IMG/VR virus record: IMGVR_UViG_3300020152_000035
Location: 1-43,655 of that record
Reading direction: 5' to 3' (one strand)
DNA from: a virus
DNA: 43,655 nucleotides
A program made the translations under genes and the position numbers. Below the pieces are notes generated by a model, which was given only the letters and a program-made list of their open reading frames with translations, ran no database searches and was not told where the DNA came from. Below are positions 2,525 to 30,911 of the stretch, in pieces. Position 1 is the stretch's first letter. Each line of letters begins with the position of its first letter.

Positions 2525-3767
2525 TTTTTCCACCCGCGTCCGTACGCGTGGTGCAAATCCAGTGACGCAGCGACAGACGCCCCGATGGTCGCCCAGTTGG
2601 TTTACGGGGTTATCGGGGCGCACATTCGATGTATCGCAAGCCATGAGTGTTCCAGCATTCGGCCGCGCGGGGAACATCATCGCCGGAACGATTGCGGGGT
2701 TCCCCTTACACATCTACGAGTCCGGACAGGACGGGCAGCGTCGATTGGCGCAGGACGACTCCAACCGGTTTCTGTGGGGCGTCGGCGGGCCGCGTAGCAA
2801 GAACAACGACCGGCCACTCGGGCCTAACCCGGAGGTTCCAGCGTTTGTCTTTTGGAAGGTAGTGGCGACTCACAAGTTCTGGCGAGAGAACGTCTACCTC
2901 TTTGTGGTTTCTGATAATGCCCGGCGTACTCTGGAACTCTGGCCGATCGATCCTGTTCGCGTGCGGGTCGGGCGCCTCGCAGACGGCCGCAAGATATTCG
3001 AGGTCGATGGCAAAGAGGCATACCTCGACTACCTCCACGGAGGAGAGATCGTCCATGTCGTCGGGGACTCAGAGGATGGGCTCGTCGGCGTAGGACCACT
3101 ACAGCGCTACGCCGACACCTTCGAGACGGCGATTTCGACGGAGCAGTACGCCTCCCGGCAGTTCTCAAACAACACGAATCCGAGCGGCATCCTCAAGACC
3201 GACCAGCAACTGACTCCAGACCGCGCCGAGGAACTCCTTGCGCGCTGGGAGGCGCGTCACGCTGGCGGGGTAAACGCTGGCCGCCCTGCTGTTCTGTCGA
3301 ACGGGCTGGAATGGCAAACGATCCAGTTCAACCCGGAAGAGACTCAGATGCTCGAGTCTCGCAAGTTCGGCGTGTTCCTCATGGAGATCCTGAGCGGCGT
3401 CCCGCCGCACTTGCTGGGCGACGTAGAACGGTCTACTTCGTGGGGGAGCGGCATCGAAGAGCAATCAAGAAATTTCCTGACGTACACGCTCTCGAATCAC
3501 TACATTCCGATTGAACAGACGATCACGATGGCGTTCCTGCCGAAGGATCGCTTTGCGTTGTTCAACCCGGACGCCATCCTGCGGCCGGACACCTTCAAGC
3601 GGGCTCAGGTCCACGAGATCATGATCCGCTCCCGCATGGCTACGCCAAACGAGCGCCGTGCCTACGAGAACATGGAGCCCATCGAAGGCGGCGACGAGCT
3701 CGCTGCTCCCCCGAACGCATCCCTCCCCGCACCGACTGAACGTCGTTCAACTGAGGAGGGCGAGTGA
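2505..3767 (+). CDS. portal protein, HK97 family
   Basis: A 420-residue protein that forms the dodecameric ring at the capsid vertex through which DNA passes. Typical features: the N-terminal MSVPAFGRAGNIIAGTIAG helix, the VWPIDPVRVRV-like stretch (WPIDPVRVRV), GILKTDQQLTP, FGVFLMEILSGVPPHLLGD, and a C-terminal NERRAYENMEPIEGGDEL tail, all characteristic of HK97-type portals of about 400 residues. ATG at 2505 lies inside the end of the membrane gene. The C-terminus is disordered and acidic. Order terminase-portal-protease-capsid is canonical. Confidence 0.95.
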   Translation: MAPTLSNFSTRVRTRGANPVTQRQTPRWSPSWFTGLSGRTFDVSQAMSVPAFGRAGNIIAGTIAGFPLHIYESGQDGQRRLAQDDSNRFLWGVGGPRSKNNDRPLGPNPEVPAFVFWKVVATHKFWRENVYLFVVSDNARRTLELWPIDPVRVRVGRLADGRKIFEVDGKEAYLDYLHGGEIVHVVGDSEDGLVGVGPLQRYADTFETAISTEQYASRQFSNNTNPSGILKTDQQLTPDRAEELLARWEARHAGGVNAGRPAVLSNGLEWQTIQFNPEETQMLESRKFGVFLMEILSGVPPHLLGDVERSTSWGSGIEEQSRNFLTYTLSNHYIPIEQTITMAFLPKDRFALFNPDAILRPDTFKRAQVHEIMIRSRMATPNERRAYENMEPIEGGDELAAPPNASLPAPTERRSTEEGE

Positions 3768-11302: not shown

Positions 11303-13255
11303 ATGGCTGACCGCCAGCTCACCGTAACAATTTTGGGAGATGCTGCCGACGCCGTGCGTGCCTTGAAGCAGATGGACGGCGAACTCGGCACGGTTGAGAC
11401 CACGACGACCCGCGTTGGCCGGACGATGCAGAATGCCTTTGCCATCGGCGCGACGGCGATCGCGGCTGGCACGGCAGCGGCGGCGGCAGGCGCGGGGGCG
11501 GTACTCAACCTCGCGAACTCCTATGCCGAGGCGGGTTCGCAAATCTTCGACCTGTCGCAGCGGACGGGGTTCTCCACCGAGGCTCTCTCCGAATGGAAGT
11601 ACGCGGCTGACCAGTCCGGGGCCAGCATCGAAGGCCTAGAGGTTGGCATCCGGCGGATGTCCTCGACGGTCGTGGATGCAGGCAATGGGCTCGACAGTGC
11701 CAAAGACATCCTGAAGGGGCTCGGAGTCTCGGTCTCAGAACTCAACGGCCTCCAGCCGGAGCAGATTTTCAACCGCATGGTCGCCGCTCTCGCCTCCGTC
11801 GATGACGAGACGACCAGAGCGGCGCTCGCGACTGACCTGTTCGGACGCTCCGGCACGCAACTTCTGCCGTTGCTCGCTGATGGGACGGAAGGCCTCGAAG
11901 CGCTGAAGCAAGAGGCTCGAGAGGCAGGTGTCGTCTTCAGTCAGGACGCCGCCGCAGCCGCGGACGCATTCGGCGACGACATGCTGCGGCTTGAACGAGA
12001 GATTCAGGGCGTCAAGTACCAGATCGCCAGTGAGTTACTCCCAGCGCTCACGCCGATGATCGACGAGTTCCAGTCGTGGATCGACCAGAACGGCGCCGAG
12101 TTCGCTAGAGACACGGCCGAGGCCATCGCTGGCGTAGCGGAAAAGACGAGCGAACTGGTCGGCTGGCTGGGGGACGTCGCGAGCTTCGGGCCGATCCGAG
12201 TGGCGATCGACGTGGCCGCGAACATGAGCGGCGACGAGCTCGCGATCGCGACTACGGCTCTGCTCGTGGGGTCGCGGTTCGGGCCGATCGGGTTAGGGCT
12301 CGGCGCGCTCACTGCGGGCGTCGCAGCTATTACCTCCGGGCAGCCGACGGAACGCCCGATCGGCGGGCCAGCAGGAGCGCGCCCCGCGGGTGCCCCCGCG
12401 CCTGTTGGCGTCCGCGCCGGCGGTTCGGGCAGCAACTTCACGCCTTCGGTTCCTAGCGGCATGAGCGACGAGGACGCCTTCCTCGCCGCTGAGGAGGCGC
12501 TCGCACGCGCGGCCGGCTGGGTTCCGAACGAGAACGGCCCAATCACACCGCCGCGCGCATCGGCCGGGTTCGCCGCAGGCCGTGGTGCGGGCGGGGTGAG
12601 CACCGCTCGCGGTGGCGGCGCCGGCGGTGCAAAGAAGGCGGTCGAGGAACTCACCGAGGCCGAGCGCGCGCTCGCCCGCATCCGCGAGGACCAAGCTGCG
12701 GAGATCGAGCGCGCCTACGTCACGGGCGGCATCGAAGCCGTCAACGCACTGCGCCAACTCCACGCCGAACAGGACGCGACCTGGGAGGCGATGAAAGCCC
12801 AGGCCCGTGAGGACGGCTACGAACTGACGGACACGGCTCGCGACGCGTGGCAGCAGATGCTCGAAGACCAGAAGGCCGCGAACGAGCGGATGAACGAGGA
12901 GAACGAGCGCGCCTTCGAGGAACTCGAGCGCATCCGCCAGGACGCGATCGACGACATGCTCGAAGCGGAGAAAAAGGCGGCGGAGGAGCGTAAGCGCATC
13001 CTCGACGATGAGAACCAGGACGTCTTCAACCGCACGCGCCAACTCTGGGCCGCAGCCGGGCCGAACCTCTCGACCGGGAACGCGCTCTCCCTCGCGCGCC
13101 AGGCGGAGCTCGGCGCGATCCTCAACACCAACGTCAACAATCCCGGCCTCGACCGCGGCTACACGATCGTCAACTACGGCACGCAGAACCTCGCGCTGCC
13201 CAACGTGGTCGCGGGTCAGCCGCTCATGCCGTCCACGGCGGACAGCCTACCTTGA
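11303..13255 (+). CDS. tape measure protein
   Basis: A 650-residue protein, by position and composition the tape measure that sets tail length. An N-terminal helix with ILGDAADAVRALKQMDGEL is followed by an Ala-rich hydrophobic stretch (about residues 45-75). QIFDLSQRTGFSTEALSEW and LPLLADGTEGLEALKQEA are typical of TMP_2-like domains. Residues 330-450 are Gly/Pro/Ala-rich. Residues about 450-590 form a long charged coiled coil with many Glu/Arg. The length implies a tail on the order of 100 nm by the usual 1.5 angstrom per residue rule. Confidence 0.92.
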   Translation: MADRQLTVTILGDAADAVRALKQMDGELGTVETTTTRVGRTMQNAFAIGATAIAAGTAAAAAGAGAVLNLANSYAEAGSQIFDLSQRTGFSTEALSEWKYAADQSGASIEGLEVGIRRMSSTVVDAGNGLDSAKDILKGLGVSVSELNGLQPEQIFNRMVAALASVDDETTRAALATDLFGRSGTQLLPLLADGTEGLEALKQEAREAGVVFSQDAAAAADAFGDDMLRLEREIQGVKYQIASELLPALTPMIDEFQSWIDQNGAEFARDTAEAIAGVAEKTSELVGWLGDVASFGPIRVAIDVAANMSGDELAIATTALLVGSRFGPIGLGLGALTAGVAAITSGQPTERPIGGPAGARPAGAPAPVGVRAGGSGSNFTPSVPSGMSDEDAFLAAEEALARAAGWVPNENGPITPPRASAGFAAGRGAGGVSTARGGGAGGAKKAVEELTEAERALARIREDQAAEIERAYVTGGIEAVNALRQLHAEQDATWEAMKAQAREDGYELTDTARDAWQQMLEDQKAANERMNEENERAFEELERIRQDAIDDMLEAEKKAAEERKRILDDENQDVFNRTRQLWAAAGPNLSTGNALSLARQAELGAILNTNVNNPGLDRGYTIVNYGTQNLALPNVVAGQPLMPSTADSLP

Positions 13256-15624
13256 TCTCCATCCTGACCTTCGACGGGCACGCCATCAATGACGGCACGA
13301 ACTACGACGCCTGGTTCGACGTAGGGGACTCGCCGTACTCGCGGCAGATCACGCCGGTCATCCAGCGCCCGCTCTCTCGCATCCCGCGCTACATGCGGCG
13401 GGACATCCAGGAGCGGATCATCCCGGTCCACGTCTCGATCAAGACCGACCTCGCCGCAAATCGCGAGCAACTCGAGGAGTGGTTCGCACCGGGGGAGGCG
13501 GGCGAGCTCGTCGTCGCCTACGAGGGCACGGACCGCGCGCTGACCTGCGTCGTCACGCGCTTCATCTCCTACGACGGCTCCGCGAACCGCTTCACGGCCG
13601 TACTGCTGGCCGCTGACCCGGAGTGGCACTCGCCATCGGTACAGAATGTCAGCCAGCAGCAGACAGCGAGCGGTGCCACCTGGGACGTCACGAACGACGG
13701 GAACGCCGTCGAGAGCCGCGCCGTGATCACGCTCCAGCCGCGCACGGCGAAGGTCGCGGCGGACGCCTACCTCTACAAGCGCGAGGTGATCGTCGCCAAC
13801 CGCGTCGCGCGCGCATTCGCGAACTACGCGCTCGACGTGACCGACAGCGGCCTCGACCACGCCGCGCTAGTCACGGCGACGAAGTCTCAGGCTGACGGCG
13901 ACGACGTCCGGGTGCGTGTGGATGGCGTCGAGGTGCCGCGCTGGTTCCATGAGCACGCGAGTCACGACGCGAACTCGGCGGCAACGCGCGTCTGGATCAA
14001 CATCAGCCTGTCACCCGGCAAGTTCGCGGAGCTGCTCGCGGACGTGACGGCAGGCACCCCAGCAGACGGCTCGGACCTCGAGGTCGTGCGGGGCGGCACG
14101 TCGGGCTGGCCGCGCTCAGGCGCGTTCCTGATCGACGACGAGATCGTGGAGTACGACGGGGTTTCGGAGAGCAATGCAAATGGCAGGGCCAGTTTTCTAA
14201 ACATCAAGCGCGCGCGCCGCGGTACGGCGGCGGCGAGCCATAGCGCAGGCGACATCCTGTACTGGGTCGAGCGCCGCGTGCAGATCGTCTACGGCTGGTC
14301 GGCGGCTACAGCGCCGGACGCCTTCCCTGAGCGGAAGCCGATGCTGGACTTCACGTCGAGCACGCTGACGAACGAGCAGCACGAGTACCTCGATTTCGCG
14401 CACGAGACCGACCCGCGGTCGATGCAGTGGGCGCGCACCTACCTCAGCCGCGACGATCAAGGCCAGCTTGTCCGTGCGCCGAGCGGCACTCCTGCCGCCG
14501 CGATGACGCTCGAATACGACCAGGATGGGGCGTCTGTCGGCTATCCCAACTACAACGCTTGGACGCGCGACTTCCCCTCAAAGACGGACGGGAACATCGC
14601 GATCACGCGCGTTGTGGACAACACGATGGCCTTACAGGTGATCGGGACAGACGAGGAAGGCAACGAGGTACGGGGCACGCCCGCCAACAACGGATTACTG
14701 CTCGGGCCGCTGAGTTCGGGCTCGGTCAATCACGACCCTGGCGATGTGGTGAGCCTGCTCTTCTGGGGCGTGAACCAGTTGATCGGGGCGTCGCGTGCTG
14801 TAGCGCTGGCGGCTGGCACTGCTGCCTTGCTGGACACGGATAGCGCGGCGAACGCGCAGCAGTTCACGACTGGCGATGAGCCCATGATGCTGAAGTCGGT
14901 TTCCGTCTGGGCGGGCGGCAGCAACGAGTCCACCACCCTCCGCATCATGCCAGACAACGCTGGGGCGCCGGCCGGGGAGGCCGCCTCGCTGGGGTCTGCA
15001 AGCCTCAACCTCAGCACCACCGCAGGCATCGCGACAGCCACCTTCACTACGGCCATCCGCCTCGAGCCGAACACGACGTACTGGATCGGAATCGAGACCG
15101 GCGCCGGTAACTCGTGGCACTACACGAACGGCAGTTACTCGGGCGGACCAGCGCGCATCAACGGCACGAACTATGCCTACCGCCGCTATGAGTTCAAGAT
15201 CACGGGCTACCCGGCGCCGCCCAGCATCGCGTACGAGCGCTTCGACTCGAACTGCCTCGCAGACGACCAGGATGTGGCGCAGGTCACAGCACTCACTGTG
15301 CCGCTGCTCGCCACCGGCGTCCCGTACGTTGCGGTCGGCAGTGAGCAGGCGGCGTACTGGCTGAACGGCACGCTGACCAACACCCTTACGGCACAGAGCG
15401 TGACGTTCGACCTGATCTGCGCGCTGCTGGACGAGATCGAGATCGACGTCGGCGCGCGCACCATCCTGAACGTCACGCAGGGCGAGTCGGTATTCGCCAG
15501 CGCGCAGTTCTCTGACCCGGAGAACTGGATCGACATCTTCTCGGGCGCGAACACCTTCTCGTACGACGAAGAGGGGATCGCGCGTGTCGACGTCACGATC
15601 TCTTTTAGAGACAGGTGGCACTAG
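13252..15624 (+). CDS. distal tail (Dit-like) protein with long extension
   Basis: A 790-residue protein starting TTG at 13252 inside the tape-measure stop. Residues 1-130 fit the N-terminal Dit/siphovirus tail component: LTFDGHAINDGTNYDAWF, then RRDIQERIIPVHVSI and RFTAVLLAADPEWHSPS. The middle is beta-rich. Residues about 530-640 look like a jelly-roll or carbohydrate-binding module (LEPNTTYWIGIETGAGNSWHY). The end, DVTISFRDRWH, returns to a Dit-like strand, so the middle could be an insertion between two Dit halves. The last codons are followed at once by a leftward HNH gene. Confidence 0.75.
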   Translation: MISILTFDGHAINDGTNYDAWFDVGDSPYSRQITPVIQRPLSRIPRYMRRDIQERIIPVHVSIKTDLAANREQLEEWFAPGEAGELVVAYEGTDRALTCVVTRFISYDGSANRFTAVLLAADPEWHSPSVQNVSQQQTASGATWDVTNDGNAVESRAVITLQPRTAKVAADAYLYKREVIVANRVARAFANYALDVTDSGLDHAALVTATKSQADGDDVRVRVDGVEVPRWFHEHASHDANSAATRVWINISLSPGKFAELLADVTAGTPADGSDLEVVRGGTSGWPRSGAFLIDDEIVEYDGVSESNANGRASFLNIKRARRGTAAASHSAGDILYWVERRVQIVYGWSAATAPDAFPERKPMLDFTSSTLTNEQHEYLDFAHETDPRSMQWARTYLSRDDQGQLVRAPSGTPAAAMTLEYDQDGASVGYPNYNAWTRDFPSKTDGNIAITRVVDNTMALQVIGTDEEGNEVRGTPANNGLLLGPLSSGSVNHDPGDVVSLLFWGVNQLIGASRAVALAAGTAALLDTDSAANAQQFTTGDEPMMLKSVSVWAGGSNESTTLRIMPDNAGAPAGEAASLGSASLNLSTTAGIATATFTTAIRLEPNTTYWIGIETGAGNSWHYTNGSYSGGPARINGTNYAYRRYEFKITGYPAPPSIAYERFDSNCLADDQDVAQVTALTVPLLATGVPYVAVGSEQAAYWLNGTLTNTLTAQSVTFDLICALLDEIEIDVGARTILNVTQGESVFASAQFSDPENWIDIFSGANTFSYDEEGIARVDVTISFRDRWH

Positions 15625-16142
15625 ACCACATGCTTCCAATTCTTACCGAGTGCGATGCGCGATACAGAGACCTGACCGATGCCAAATCGATCGGCAATGG
15701 CCTGCTGGCTCATGCTGCCGAGGAGGGTGCGAATCGTGCGGACATCCTCTTCAGAGAGCTTGGCGCTGTGGTGCTGGGCTCCGAAACGAAGGTTCGCGAC
15801 TGGGTTAGAAAGGCCCGTGCGCGCAGCATGGATCTGGTTAGCGCTCGGGGTAACCCATTCAAGGTTTTCGACACGATTGTTTGTGGGGTCGCCGTCGATG
15901 TGATTGACCTGATGGGTATTTGTCGGGGGGCCTCCGAGGAACGCCTTCGCTACCAACCTATGAACCGTTCGGCTGTATTGCTTGTCTTGGCCGCGGAGAT
16001 TGACGTACAGGCGTCTCTCCCAAACGCCCGGACGGAGCACGCGTGGCGCAGGCCTCCCTGGCAGTACTACCACGCGCCTGACGTTCCCAAGACTGCTCAC
16101 TTCGTACAGGGGGAACTCTTCGATCTGGCGCCACTCTTCCAT
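15621..16142 (-). CDS. NUMOD4-HNH homing endonuclease
   Basis: A 173-residue leftward gene. Residues 1-30 are NUMOD4-like (MEEWRQIEEFPLYEVSSLGNV). The HNH core is HRLVAKAFLGG, then NHIDGDPTNNRVENLEWVT. The C-terminus is a helix-turn-helix (LSEEDVRTIRTLLG, IADRFGIGQVSVSRIALG). I prefer ATG 16142 over GTG 16169 because the family starts there and TATAAT lies six bases upstream. Codon use is less GC-biased than in neighbouring genes. The stop TAG comes from CTAG, which also gives the upstream tail gene its stop. It is probably a selfish homing gene. Confidence 0.88.
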   Translation of the reverse strand: MEEWRQIEEFPLYEVSSLGNVRRVVVLPGRPAPRVLRPGVWERRLYVNLRGQDKQYSRTVHRLVAKAFLGGPPTNTHQVNHIDGDPTNNRVENLEWVTPSANQIHAARTGLSNPVANLRFGAQHHSAKLSEEDVRTIRTLLGSMSQQAIADRFGIGQVSVSRIALGKNWKHVV

Positions 16143-16148
16143 TTCTCG

Positions 16149-16154
16149 ATTATA
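16149..16154 (-). promoter_or_regulatory. consensus -10 box TATAAT for the HNH gene
   Basis: A perfect TATAAT read leftward, six bases before ATG 16142. Initiation at the normal distance would fall on or next to the ATG, giving a leaderless mRNA. The box lies within the orphan copy of the tail gene's terminal codons. The -35 region is weak. Confidence 0.55.
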
Positions 16155-16171
16155 CGAAGTCGGTGGCACTG

Positions 16172-17005
16172 ATGCCGATGATCCACAACACCTCGTACGA
16201 AGTCGGCGACTACATCCCAGCGGAGCAGTTCGGCGACGGCTGCGTCCATGCTGTGCGTTATCACGCGGCAGGCGTCACGCAGGACTCACTCGGCCCATCC
16301 CCGACACCGTTCAACGGCTCACGCACTGTGCGCTTCGCCTGCAAGACTGGCGACCCGCCCTGGACGCCCAGCGGCTCGGCGCTGGGCTACCGCTCGGAGC
16401 ACGAGCACGACGACCACGAACTGAGCAGCTCGGGCACGTACTGCTGGTACGGCTGGGCGCTCTACCTCAACGCCGACTGGAAGATCGGCTCTGAGGGCTG
16501 GCGCATCCTCACGCAGTGGCACCTCGGCTCCGGGCAGCCCGCGCTAAAGCTCGTCTATGACGTGGCCTCTGCTGGTGGATGGTGCTGGCAGCGCCGCACG
16601 ACGACCAACCTGAACCAGATGATCACACCGATCACGCTGGCGACCGGACAGTGGCACCGCTTCGTGGTCAAGGCACGCTGGCGCGCGGACAACACCGGCC
16701 TGCTGAAAATCTGGCAGAACGACGTGCTGCTGGCCGACCTGAACAACATCAGGACGGTCGCGACCTCTAGCGCTGCGGTCTACTCGAAGCGCGGGCTGTA
16801 CCACCAATCCGGGGCCGATGGCTATGTCTACGGCGACGACTGGAAGACATACAAGACCACGAACGCAGCCGAAGACGCGTACTCGCTGGTGAACCCCTCG
16901 GGCGGTTCCGAGACGGGCGGCATCCTCCCGCCTCCTTCGACCTCACTTATGGCCTACAGCGCTCTCCGTAACCACGGCTCCGGACTGGCGAGGGTGCTGC
17001 GATGA
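16172..17005 (+). CDS. polysaccharide-lyase-like tail protein
   Basis: A 277-residue protein resembling the heparin-lyase-I/PL-type jelly-roll family. Features: RTVRFACKTGDPP, a charged YRSEHEHDDHEL block, WYGWALYLNADWKIGSEGW, ILTQWHLGSGQPALKLVYD, then GQWHRFVVKARWRADNTGLLKIWQND in shorter pieces. These enzymes cut uronate-containing polymers, so it may be a tail depolymerase that opens host capsule. Start ATG 16172 would form TGATG with the ancestral upstream stop; GTG 16163 is an alternative. Activity is inferred. Confidence 0.7.
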   Translation: MPMIHNTSYEVGDYIPAEQFGDGCVHAVRYHAAGVTQDSLGPSPTPFNGSRTVRFACKTGDPPWTPSGSALGYRSEHEHDDHELSSSGTYCWYGWALYLNADWKIGSEGWRILTQWHLGSGQPALKLVYDVASAGGWCWQRRTTTNLNQMITPITLATGQWHRFVVKARWRADNTGLLKIWQNDVLLADLNNIRTVATSSAAVYSKRGLYHQSGADGYVYGDDWKTYKTTNAAEDAYSLVNPSGGSETGGILPPPSTSLMAYSALRNHGSGLARVLR

Positions 17006-22382: not shown

Positions 22383-22814
22383 GTGCCGAACGATTTCATC
22401 ATCAGCAACGCAGCCGCGATCGCGATGCTCGACGTGCTGGACGACCAGATCAACGCGGGCACCGCGGCCGTGATCAACATCTACGACGGCACTCCGCCCG
22501 CAGAAGCGGATGCTGCGCTGTCCGGTAACAACCTGCTCGCGCAACTCACCATGAGCGCCACCGCGTTCGGCGCGGCGGCGGACGCGACCGGCAAGGCGCG
22601 CATCACCGCAGCGGCGATCACAGCGGACTCGTCAGCGGACGCGACTGGGACGGCATCGTTCTACCGCATCCTCACCCAGTCGGGCGGGACGGTCGTGGTG
22701 CAGGGCACGGTCGGCACCTCGAACGCCGACCTCGTCCTGAATACGGTCGCAGTGACCGCCGGATCAACGGTCTCGATCACGGCGATGACGATCGATCTAC
22801 CGGAACAGGCCTAG
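22383..22814 (+). CDS. phage structural protein
   Basis: A 143-residue protein from GTG 22383. It has a helical start (AAIAMLDVLDDQINAG), INIYDGTPPAEADAAL, and a beta-rich end with GTASFYRI, QGTVGTSNADLVLNTVAV and TAGSTVSITAMTI. This layout is frequent in small phage virion proteins near the fibre genes. The final LPEQA-stop is repeated in frame beyond the HNH gene that follows. Its stop TAG is part of a CTAG shared with that leftward gene. Confidence 0.6.
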   Translation: MPNDFIISNAAAIAMLDVLDDQINAGTAAVINIYDGTPPAEADAALSGNNLLAQLTMSATAFGAAADATGKARITAAAITADSSADATGTASFYRILTQSGGTVVVQGTVGTSNADLVLNTVAVTAGSTVSITAMTIDLPEQA

Positions 22815-23368
22815 GTGTGACGGGCTCGCCAACGGCGCATGGCATCACGGGTGCAAGTGCGGCATGCTCGCGCGCCGTTCTTGAGTACCCGCGTGTTCTG
22901 TTCGTCGAATGGATGGCCGTGGATGCACTCGCTCTTGAGACCAGTGCCGTAAGAACGTTGGCGAGCCACGTTGTCCGCATGGCTAACGACATCAAGGTGT
23001 TCGGGGCGGACACAATTGCGGACGTAGCAGAGGTGGTCAACCTCCATACCGATCGCCCTGTCCCCAACGGCAAAGCGGTGCGCGAGGGACATCTGTCCCT
23101 TGGCAATGCCGAAGTATCCGTATCCCGTCTTGGATGTCGCACCAGTCCAGATCCAACAGTTGCCGAGGGTTGGGTTGCTCGCGGGGAGTGGGCCGGCTTT
23201 GTCCACGAAACGCCAGAAACGCACATCGGCCGGCACGGAGTCGCGCGCGTAGCGGGCCATTTCAGGCCGCGCATCGCCATGCGCTTTCCATCGGTCGTAG
23301 TGCCGCGAGCACATGCCGCGGCTCTTGGTGGGACGTTCGCATGACTCGACGGAACAAGGAGTAGCCAT
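22811..23368 (-). CDS. HNH endonuclease with zinc knuckle, leftward
   Basis: A 185-residue protein. Residues 5-31 are a zinc knuckle (CSVESCERP...MCSRHYDRW) like those in the nuclease at 325-822. FWRFVDKAGP and CWIWTGATSKTGYGYFG lead into the HNH core VDHLCYVRNCVRPEHLDVV. A CIHGHPFDEQNT plus CRTCTRDAMRRW end is typical of HNH_3 homing nucleases. ATG 23368 has TACAAT six bases upstream. The stop TAG uses the same CTAG as the upstream structural gene. Confidence 0.9.
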   Translation of the reverse strand: MATPCSVESCERPTKSRGMCSRHYDRWKAHGDARPEMARYARDSVPADVRFWRFVDKAGPLPASNPTLGNCWIWTGATSKTGYGYFGIAKGQMSLAHRFAVGDRAIGMEVDHLCYVRNCVRPEHLDVVSHADNVARQRSYGTGLKSECIHGHPFDEQNTRVLKNGARACRTCTRDAMRRWRARHT

Positions 23369-23417
23369 GCAGACATTGTACTACATTGAGCGCATCACCA
23401 TGCCTGAGCAGGCGTAG
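23367..23417 (+). other. orphan 3' tail of the interrupted structural gene
   Basis: A 16-codon frame (ending ERITMPEQA-stop) beyond the HNH gene repeats the C-terminal LPEQA-stop of the gene at 22383-22814. The three base differences within PEQA are all in third codon positions. It probably is the displaced original gene end. An AAGGAG precedes its ATG, so it might be translated. Confidence 0.55.
23375..23380 (-). promoter_or_regulatory. -10 box TACAAT for the second leftward HNH gene
   Basis: TACAAT read leftward, six bases before ATG 23368, the same spacing as TATAAT before the other leftward HNH gene. It lies in the orphan tail segment. No clear -35. Confidence 0.5.
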
Positions 23418-23419
23418 GC

Positions 23420-23686
23420 GTGGACGCGCTCAATCGACGCCGCGCGCGTACATGGCTCCTGCGGGAGATCCATGCGGAGAACGGCGACGCGGGTTTCTCA
23501 AAGGCGGAACTCGACGCGGCTGTCGGGGCGATCGACGACTGGGCCACGGCCAACGCCACATCGTTCAATCAGGCCCTCCCGCAGCCCTTCCGGGGAGCCG
23601 CAAGTACGTCGCTGAAGAACCTGCTCCTCGCGGCGGTCTGCCTCAGGCGCGCTGGCAAAGCGAAGACGACTGAGGACGAAGCCTAA
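23420..23686 (+). CDS. 88-residue unknown protein
   Basis: A helical protein from GTG 23420, two bases after the orphan tail stop. RTWLLREIHAENGDAGFS, LDAAVGAIDDWATANATSF and LKNLLLAAVCLRRAGK suggest a compact helical bundle. It lies among structural genes and ends in TAATG. Function is unknown. Confidence 0.55.
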   Translation: MDALNRRRARTWLLREIHAENGDAGFSKAELDAAVGAIDDWATANATSFNQALPQPFRGAASTSLKNLLLAAVCLRRAGKAKTTEDEA

Positions 23687-29522: not shown

Positions 29523-29848
29523 CCACGCACCTCGCCCCGGCCACGCACCGCAACGACCCACGCACGAGCCTCGAAGCCGAGCTCGAAGTGACGGTCACGG
29601 GCCAACGGCAGCGGCACATCGACATGGTGGTCGCTTCGGTGCGCGAGTACCCCGGCCTCACCGCTGAGGAGTACGGCGCGCTCACCGGCCTCGGCCGCAT
29701 CGAGACGGCGCGCCGCCTCAGTGACGCGAAGGAAGCGTGGCTGGTGCGTCGGGGCGAGCGAAAGGTCTACCCGGCAGTAGGTGGCACCTCGCAGAGCACC
29801 TGGTACCCGGTGACAGCGGAGCCGGTGCAGATCGGGATGCCGCTGTGA
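29519..29848 (+). CDS. winged-helix DNA-binding protein
   Basis: A 109-residue protein. TSLEAELEVTVTGQRQRHID precedes a winged helix-turn-helix: VVASVREYPGLTAEEYGALTG, LGRIETARRLSDAKEAWLV, and a wing with RRGERKVYPAVGG. This layout is common in small phage regulators and replication-adjacent proteins. Target is unknown. Confidence 0.65.
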   Translation: MTTHLAPATHRNDPRTSLEAELEVTVTGQRQRHIDMVVASVREYPGLTAEEYGALTGLGRIETARRLSDAKEAWLVRRGERKVYPAVGGTSQSTWYPVTAEPVQIGMPL

Positions 29849-30444
29849 AGTACGCGCTGTTCTTGGCTGTGTTCGGAGTAGTGGTGAGCGGGTGCCAGGG
29901 GGCACACGAACGGAGCAGCTCGAGCCCTCCGGTCGTGTCCCCCCTGGCGTCGCCCACGCTTGTTTCGGATCGGGCCAAAGGCGACGCCAGTGACGAGGAC
30001 ATGGGCGCAATCGGCATTGTCGATTCCCACGCTGACGCTCTCTCTGTCAGCGCGCCCGTGTCCTCGTCACTCAATGGGGACGTAGCTCATCAGGTAGAGC
30101 AGCGGTCTCCAAAACCGCAGGTGGCAGGTTCGACTCCTGCCGTCCCCGCCACGCAACCGATCGCCTTCACGTACGAGGAGTGGTTGGCGGCGAAGGCGTT
30201 CCCACCGTCCGAGCAGATGCGCGCGCTGCGCGTGATGCGCTGCGAGACGCGCGGCTCGGCAGCTCCTGACTACGCCGTCGGGCGTGCGGGCGAGGTGGGG
30301 CGCTGGCAAGTGCATCCCATTCACGCGGGCCTCGTGGAGCGCCTCGGCTACGAGTGGGCGGACCTCACTGATCCGGAAGTGAACGGCATCGTCGCGCGCG
30401 CCATCTGGGACGCGAGCGGATGGAAAGCATGGGCCTGCGCCTAA
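29845..30444 (+). CDS. lipoprotein lytic-transglycosylase-like ORF containing a tRNA gene
   Basis: A 199-residue frame from GTG 29845. Residues 1-18 form a signal peptide ending in a lipobox (VVVSGC). A Ser/Pro-rich linker follows. Residues about 110-198 resemble a small SLT-like domain: MRALRVMRCETRG (likely catalytic Glu), GEVGRWQVHPIHAG, EVNGIVARAIWDASGW, and a final CA. It would loosen peptidoglycan at the cell surface. A complete tRNA-Trp (30076-30151) lies in the linker, in the same strand, and is translated as GDVAHQVEQRS and onward. Either the protein tolerates this, or two genes have been merged by a tRNA without stop codons. Confidence 0.55.
   Translation: MKYALFLAVFGVVVSGCQGAHERSSSSPPVVSPLASPTLVSDRAKGDASDEDMGAIGIVDSHADALSVSAPVSSSLNGDVAHQVEQRSPKPQVAGSTPAVPATQPIAFTYEEWLAAKAFPPSEQMRALRVMRCETRGSAAPDYAVGRAGEVGRWQVHPIHAGLVERLGYEWADLTDPEVNGIVARAIWDASGWKAWACA
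30076..30151 (+). tRNA. tRNA-Trp (anticodon CCA), CCA end encoded
   Basis: A 76-base canonical tRNA: acceptor GGGGACG/CGTCCCC, D-stem GCTC/GAGC, anticodon arm GCGGT-CTCCAAA-ACCGC, T-arm GCAGG-TTCGACT-CCTGC, discriminator G and encoded CCA. All stems pair perfectly. It lies inside an open protein frame. It may support Trp-rich late proteins. Confidence 0.97.
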
Positions 30445-30911
30445 TGGGAACAATCACTTTTGGCGAGCGCTTCTGGTCGAAAGTTGATCGATCCGCCGGG
30501 CCTGAGTCGTGCTGGTTGTGGAAGGCGTCAATCGATCGGGCGGGCTACGGAAAGTTTTCCTACGGCCACTCGCGCTGGGTCGGCGCGCACCGCGTTGCGT
30601 ACGAACTGGCAAACGGCCCCGCGCCGGGCCTGCACATTCTGCACTCGTGCGACAACCCGCCATGTGTGAACCCGGCGCACCTCCGCGCAGGAACTAACCA
30701 CGAAAACATCTTGGATGCAGTGGCGCGGCGCAGGATCAACCACGCCGGTGAACACAACGGGAACGCGCGTCTGTCCGCCGAGCAGGTGCGAGAGATTCGC
30801 GAGATCGACTGGTCTTCTGGCCTAACGAAGATCTCGGTCGCTCGTCGGTACGGCGTGTCCTACGAAACGATCCGCCAGATACGTAACGGCGAGAGATGGA
30901 GCTGCGCATGA
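30444..30911 (+). CDS. HNH homing endonuclease, rightward
   Basis: A 155-residue protein starting at ATG 30444 (TAATG with the preceding gene). FGERFWSKVDRSAGPE and CWLWKASIDRAGYGKFSYG lead into the HNH core AHRVAYELANGPAPG, LHSCDNPPCVNPAHL. The C-terminus is a helix-turn-helix (LSAEQVREIREIDWSSG, ISVARRYGVSYETIRQIRNG) like that in the leftward HNH at 15621-16142. It ends in ATGA with the next gene. The final CA-stop repeats the end of the interrupted upstream gene, so it may be an insertion like the other two. Confidence 0.9.
   Translation: MGTITFGERFWSKVDRSAGPESCWLWKASIDRAGYGKFSYGHSRWVGAHRVAYELANGPAPGLHILHSCDNPPCVNPAHLRAGTNHENILDAVARRRINHAGEHNGNARLSAEQVREIREIDWSSGLTKISVARRYGVSYETIRQIRNGERWSCA

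Follow-up and report, generated by a model that had tools for sequence, protein, structure and literature searches.

How does a free-standing HNH endonuclease gene come to lie against the end of a virion structural gene, and why does a second version of that gene's last codons stand on the far side of the endonuclease gene? We addressed this question in the complete IMG/VR record IMGVR_UViG_3300020152_000035 (the window, 43,655 bases), a phage sequence with portal, capsid, tail, lysis and integrase genes. A profile search of the window with HNH_3 returned three HNH genes (HNH1, HNH2 and HNH3), not two as first reported, and all three scored above the cut-off for PF13392 and also matched PHROG HNH families. 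They therefore carry the HNH nuclease domain of free-standing phage HNH genes. The features of the three loci are collected in Table 1.

Results

The 3′ end of a virion structural gene is repeated beyond HNH2

The virion gene at the HNH2 locus ends with the codons ATC GAT CTA CCG GAA CAG GCC TAG (IDLPEQA-stop), and beyond HNH2 the plus strand reads ATC ACC ATG CCT GAG CAG GCG TAG (ITMPEQA-stop), followed by GC and then by the GTG of the next ORF. Both coordinates and sequence agree with the PEQA-TAG repeat that had been described for positions 22797-23417 around a leftward HNH gene, and the codon comparison bears out that the three base differences within PEQA are all synonymous. Only one of 3000 dinucleotide shuffles of the far side reached the observed score of 26, which was met by about 1.7e-4 of mismatched pairs from other HNH loci in the antiparallel layout. 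The two copies are not the exact short direct repeat of a transposon target-site duplication; they are 67% identical with coding-type differences, which supports the suggestion that the repeat is protein-coding sequence from a homologous allele.

Relatives of the virion gene in actinophages and IMG/VR records have the C-termini IDLPEGP, IELPEGG, ILLPEGP and VTMPETP, and relatives were also found in mycobacteriophages. Judged against these sequences, both tail versions fit the natural C-termini of the gene family. The reading frame of the target is closed and complete and HNH2 lies outside any intron or intein; Rfam group I intron models gave no match in the window at the gathering threshold and none at the HNH2 site at a relaxed threshold. 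A search through the neighbouring ORFs, which are without close relatives, returned no empty-site relatives of the window phage. By analogy with the pair of Gordonia phages described below, the orphaned copy would be the native one.

Table 1. Features at the three HNH loci of the window (a point in the strand column stands for both strands).
Feature	Position	Strand	Support or remark
HNH1 target: 790-aa ORF in the tail-gene region after the tape-measure gene, ends FRDRWH-stop	13252..15624	+	
Putative substitute 3′ edge at HNH1	15604..15624	+	
HNH1 endonuclease gene (ATG 16142), HNH_3 domain	15621..16142	-	PF13392 55.5 bits
TATAAT, -10-like box, six bases ahead of HNH1 ATG	16149..16154	-	
HNH1 orphan tail IRSRWH-TGA	16152..16172	+	overlaps the ATG of the next gene (TGATG)
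HNH2 target: virion structural gene (PHROG 3758), 143 aa, ends IDLPEQA-stop	22383..22814	+	phrog_3758 E=1.2e-37
Putative substitute 3′ edge of the target, would have arrived with HNH2	22791..22814	+	24-nt in-frame repeat of 23394-23417, 67% identical; role by analogy with Malisha/Spooky
CTAG, overlapping TAG stops of the target (+) and HNH2 (-)	22811..22814	.	common convergent overlap type
HNH2 endonuclease gene, 185 aa, HNH_3 domain	22811..23368	-	PF13392 30.2 bits; phrog_826 E=1.2e-38
TACAAT, -10-like box, six bases ahead of HNH2 ATG	23375..23380	-	without a -35 partner
Orphan tail ITMPEQA-stop, presumed native 3′ end of the target	23394..23417	+	repeat and shuffle test; 2 nt before the next ORF
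Next ORF, 88 aa, GTG start	23420..23686	+	no relatives found
HNH3 endonuclease gene, parallel case, weaker	30444..30911	+	PF13392 46.2 bits; starts TAATG at the stop of 29737-30444
Possible HNH3 orphan tail ERWSCA-stop, identical with the HNH3 C-terminus	30891..30911	+	stop overlaps the next ATG (ATGA)

Two further HNH genes in the same phage

HNH1 shares the layout of HNH2 in an unrelated target, as had been claimed. FRDRWH-TAG precedes the HNH gene and IRSRWH-TGATG follows it, and none of 3000 shuffles reached the score of 29. HNH3 overlaps a lysozyme-like gene, with KAWACA-TAA and ERWSCA-TGA as the repeat pair (2 of 3000 shuffles reached the score of 25). It is the weakest case of the window because the Trp may be the HNH protein's own, such proteins often having a Trp near their end. 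The gene-end repeat is thus present at HNH2 and HNH1 and, less surely, probably at HNH3, with only four to eight codons repeated at each site. A tRNA gene lies at 30076-30148 (+), just upstream of the lysozyme-like gene and HNH3.

HNH1 and HNH2 are different HNH proteins, and in both genes a -10-like hexamer precedes the ATG by exactly six bases (a perfect TATAAT in 16143-16154 and TACAAT in 23369-23380, minus strand). Neither hexamer has a -35 element, as expected for leaderless transcripts, and a promoter scan at HNH2 gave no -35/-10 pair. The box at HNH2 had been placed inside the orphan tail; its distance from the ATG was given correctly and it lies in the same open stretch, but it ends about 14 nt short of the repeated codons. 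We rejected a leaderless promoter as a general feature of the design, since the box recurs at HNH1 but the hexamer is not enriched across the loci of the survey described next.

Repeated 3′ gene edges in a survey of HNH loci

HNH relatives were collected from viral contigs and bacterial genomes to give 351 non-redundant HNH ORFs. The tails of neighbouring genes, anchored at the stop codon, were compared with the far side of the HNH gene, and mismatched loci served as the null. At a score of at least 20 we observed 11 matches in the parallel layout against 1.05 expected and four in the antiparallel layout against 0.64 expected, so the predicted enrichment of terminal-codon repeats around HNH genes holds. 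HNH3 is not among the 11 parallel matches, its start having been set too far upstream in that run. In the convergent subset, for which a wider far side was used, five of 41 loci passed against 0.14 expected: HNH1, HNH2, L219, L105 and the portal gene in L072. Control genes in the same loci gave 12 parallel matches and one antiparallel match among 518, and the parallel excess is for this reason less clean than the antiparallel one. The strongest parallel control matches are tandem gene copies, and one is the HNH1 site reached through an opposite-strand ORF. Three control genes (L044 4400-5027, L050 5130-6048 and L066 441-753) have strongly repeated C-terminal tails, for example SGTPDYLKFLIG and MKWFEQFKKNKI, each followed by a stop codon; these are apparently tandem gene copies with the last 12-13 codons nearly identical.

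Unanchored local alignment added longer repeats, the long cases spanning 15-40 codons with about 40 in L120. In L219, TLYIYPAYLRLKQ and its stop codon are repeated as QLYVYPAYIRLKQ and a stop immediately ahead of the next gene, and in L079, L203, L213 and L263 the HNH ORF itself now terminates in the 8-11 repeated codons. The DNA of the repeat pairs is 57-81% identical and 80 of 167 differences fall at third codon positions, a bias that stems in part from detection by protein similarity, which favours synonymous differences. The junctions between orphan and next gene look like those of native operons, both in the window (TGATG at HNH1, TAG-GC-GTG at HNH2, ATGA at HNH3) and elsewhere (ATGA in L079 and L263, TAG-ATG in L203). 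Matches in L202 and L187 are tandem HNH paralogues and those in L073, L083 and L013 are short or of low complexity; none of these was counted as firm. About 11 firm 3′ cases and the four firm 5′ cases described below, picked by eye from the score lists, amount to about 4% of the 351 HNH ORFs.

The CTAG that stops both strands at HNH2 is present as described, with TAG serving the target and HNH2. It did not prove to be a shared signature, as the antiparallel loci L219, L072 and L105 have other stop geometry and a four-base overlap is simply common. Among the convergent HNH/ORF pairs of the survey, 14 of 60 overlap by exactly four bases, far above other offsets.

Relatives were also compared at several of the 3′ sites. 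No empty-site relatives of L213 and L219 were found in phages, and for L219 there were none in the 50 viral records searched. The terminase in L136 was compared with a partial relative (71% identical), which did not single out the orphan as native, and among the relatives of L263 in Bacteroidales both tail versions are plausible as natural ends. HNH sites differ among the Xanthomonas phages Xp10, OP1 and Xop411. The gene-end repeat was not found at the tested HNH genes of phage T7, at HNH genes of several actinophages, or at the related HNH genes Piper2020 gp23 and REQ3 orf23.

5′ gene edges and an occupied site with an empty relative

We also compared the start of the gene that follows an HNH gene with the region before the HNH gene. 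In the parallel layout four matches reached a score of 50 against 0.15 expected, some of them composition matches; the firm 5′ cases are L173, L055, L093 and L223. The design is consequently not a specifically 3′-end strategy, as had been proposed, since mirror cases occur at 5′ ends. In L173 the two copies are MPTGQQIVSDALTM and VPTGQQIVSNALTI, the first of which is fused to the HNH ORF. At 2944-3453 of this locus the HNH ORF is in frame with the first 14 codons of a head-tail gene, the complete version of which starts anew where the HNH gene ends, and translation of the HNH protein appears to use the native start of the target. The repeat in L055 covers 30 residues of the start of a VRR-nuclease-like gene, and that in L223 has 12 synonymous codon changes against two others. 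The downstream copy of the repeated gene start in L223 (reverse strand, about 3440-3470) is MATYTYAQLVARVRQSLLG; a small indel seems to have put it in a different frame from the remainder of the gene.

The top-listed and best-covering isolate match of HNH2 is gp29 of Gordonia phage Malisha (L349 13382-14041; 37% over 98%), which sits inside the lysin B gene lysB. The first residues of gp29 are MRVVKLRGAGESLGGRNMLSSIAGEDL, and those of lysin B, encoded by the gene that follows, are MTRVYKLRGAGEPLDGRNMLSSIPGHEV. The HNH gene is absent at this place in many related Gordonia phages, including Spooky, so that Malisha has an occupied site and its close relative Spooky an empty one. The two phages share a tract of 4464 nt at 99.6% identity that reaches into lysB and takes in its first 83 nt; the last 1000 nt of this tract contain no mismatch. 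HNH sequence begins in Malisha directly after these native 83 nt, which are identical to the native lysB start of Spooky and have become the opening of the HNH ORF. Malisha's rebuilt start of lysB is about 62-64% identical to that of Spooky (46/72 nt), and of its 25 codons six are the same, 13 differ synonymously and six non-synonymously; the region behind it is about 84% identical. Because the scrap equals the Spooky start and the rebuilt start has diverged, it is the scrap that belongs to the native gene, and the edge now in use was imported together with the HNH gene. Imported sequence extends further into the body of lysB, as expected if the exchange there went by homology. The Malisha/Spooky pair is a 5′-edge case, whereas HNH2 of the window is a 3′-edge case. 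The annotated HNH protein of Malisha has about 27 lysin B residues at its N-terminus, and at sites such as this the HNH start given in databases may be in error.

Discussion

Probable one-sided recombination with a diverged donor

The HNH gene is likely a free-standing element of the homing type, acquired from a diverged donor phage by recombination that was one-sided. In the donor it would have neighboured an intact allele of this virion gene. On the target side, exchange by homology inside the gene body would have given the recipient the donor's complete end (IDLPEQA-stop) together with the HNH gene. The other side would have offered little homology, and the junction would have formed a few codons short of the recipient's own stop. 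The recipient's last codons (ITMPEQA-stop) would thus have been stranded beyond the insert, still beside their native downstream gene, and the native end of the virion gene would be of the orphan type ending in ATCACCATGCCTGAGCAGGCGTAGGCGTG and not of the type of the upstream copy, ATCGATCTACCGGAACAGGCC. Only outcomes with an intact virion protein would survive selection. We infer the exact course of repair and, from the family of HNH2, that this enzyme makes the initiating cut.

On this account the incoming DNA restored the split gene by supplying its own version of the lost end. One-sided homing explains why both gene ends and both orientations are involved, why the copies differ as alleles do, why the scraps are still coupled to their native downstream gene, and why the pattern is infrequent. 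The original prediction of a general 3′-end homing strategy was right about recurrence, but most HNH loci lack the pattern and a dedicated strategy is not needed, since one-sided recombination with selection for an intact target yields the pattern as a by-product.

A purpose-built cassette of the kind first proposed is possible. It would resemble the fungal mitochondrial mORFs, with the HNH gene and the substitute end forming one evolved unit, whose enzyme cuts just at a gene edge and whose insertion repairs the target each time. The anatomy is that of the fungal cases (PMC3630166), HNH1 and HNH2 have in common both their geometry and the -10 box six bases before the ATG, and Malisha gp29, a relative of HNH2, follows the same logic. 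We nevertheless consider this explanation unlikely, because the pattern is limited to about 4% of HNH loci and is tied neither to one gene end nor to one orientation, the related genes Piper2020 gp23 and REQ3 orf23 are without it, and the foreign tract in Malisha extends through lysB (84%) with no end at the edge.

Duplication of the gene end at insertion, by target-site duplication or replication slippage and with subsequent drift of the copies, would also leave two copies in direct orientation flanking the insert. Copies that are just 57-81% identical with an excess of third-position differences are unexpected for an unselected scrap, however, and Malisha contradicts this course of events, as it is the scrap that is identical to the empty site and the functional copy that has diverged; we judge duplication to be quite improbable. 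Still harder to credit is a chance resemblance of a few codons. Each window site has only four to eight of them and the HNH3 match shares a Trp that is common in the HNH family, but 0, 1 and 2 of 3000 shuffles at HNH1, HNH2 and HNH3, the excess in the survey and the cases of 15-40 codons speak against it. Many HNH genes are carried by introns and the orphan keeps a coding frame, yet a group I intron with the orphan as last exon is the least credible explanation, given that Rfam detected none in the window at the gathering threshold or at the site at a relaxed one, the upstream gene is already complete with a natural C-terminus and HNH2 is antiparallel.

One-sided homing explains how essential genes of densely packed phage genomes can harbour HNH genes and still stay intact. 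It leaves a readable scar, the orphaned native gene end, that records which neighbour was hit, the side on which homologous exchange took place and the divergence of the donor. Past homing events can accordingly be found in single genomes, and the route by which free-standing HNH genes reach new sites becomes testable. For annotation it is a warning that some HNH proteins begin or end with codons of a neighbour, for example of lysin B in Malisha gp29. More tentatively, gene-edge exchange may be a widespread and undescribed route of phage evolution, in which HNH genes invade near either end of a gene, swap in the donor's end and leave the native one as a dated scar, and which in some phages, such as this one with its three HNH genes, may be an evolved cassette strategy. 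If this is true, past homing events and their donors could be read from the scars of native gene ends.

Comparison with known systems

Like the mob genes of phage T4, the HNH genes described here lie between phage genes and overlap their neighbours with no intron, and co-conversion of flanks is common to both (PMC2988022). The same review of phage homing endonucleases describes split genes, such as nrdA with mobE, and the text searched gave no repeated gene edge (PMC2988022). Genes 2.8, 3.8 and 7.7 of phage T7 are likewise HNH genes between genes of a one-direction operon that overlap the next start; unlike the window HNH genes, they have no repeat of the neighbouring gene's end. The HNH endonucleases of lactococcal Skunavirus are also variable genes at defined sites, and marker exclusion activity has been shown for them, but duplicated gene ends are not mentioned (PMC12724721). 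The phage literature thus covers co-conversion, split genes and recombination boundaries at HNH and other nuclease genes (PMC2988022, PMC10448857, PMC12724721), and a phage account of repeated gene edges was not found in the reviews and surveys searched, subscription journals lying mostly outside the search.

The closest precedent is provided by endonuclease ORFs of fungal mitochondria, the mORFs of Allomyces atp6 and of Glomus atp6, atp9, cox2 and nad3 (PMC3630166). There, too, an endonuclease ORF is inserted at a gene's 3′ end; the gene is completed by a C-terminal segment of foreign origin, and its native C-terminus lies stranded downstream (PMC3630166). The HNH2 site is arranged likewise, in that the endonuclease ORF adjoins one complete gene end and is followed by another. 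The fungal copies are 64-81% identical in DNA and the native copy matches relatives (PMC3630166); in Malisha/Spooky the copy beyond the ORF is native and the copy fused to the gene is foreign, in this instance at a 5′ edge. The fungal enzymes are of the LAGLIDADG or GIY-YIG type and are encoded in mitochondrial DNA, whereas those described here are HNH_3 proteins in phages, with the window itself a virus record. Unlike the fungal mORFs, the phage cases occur in either orientation and at either gene end, and their scraps range from a few to about 40 codons.
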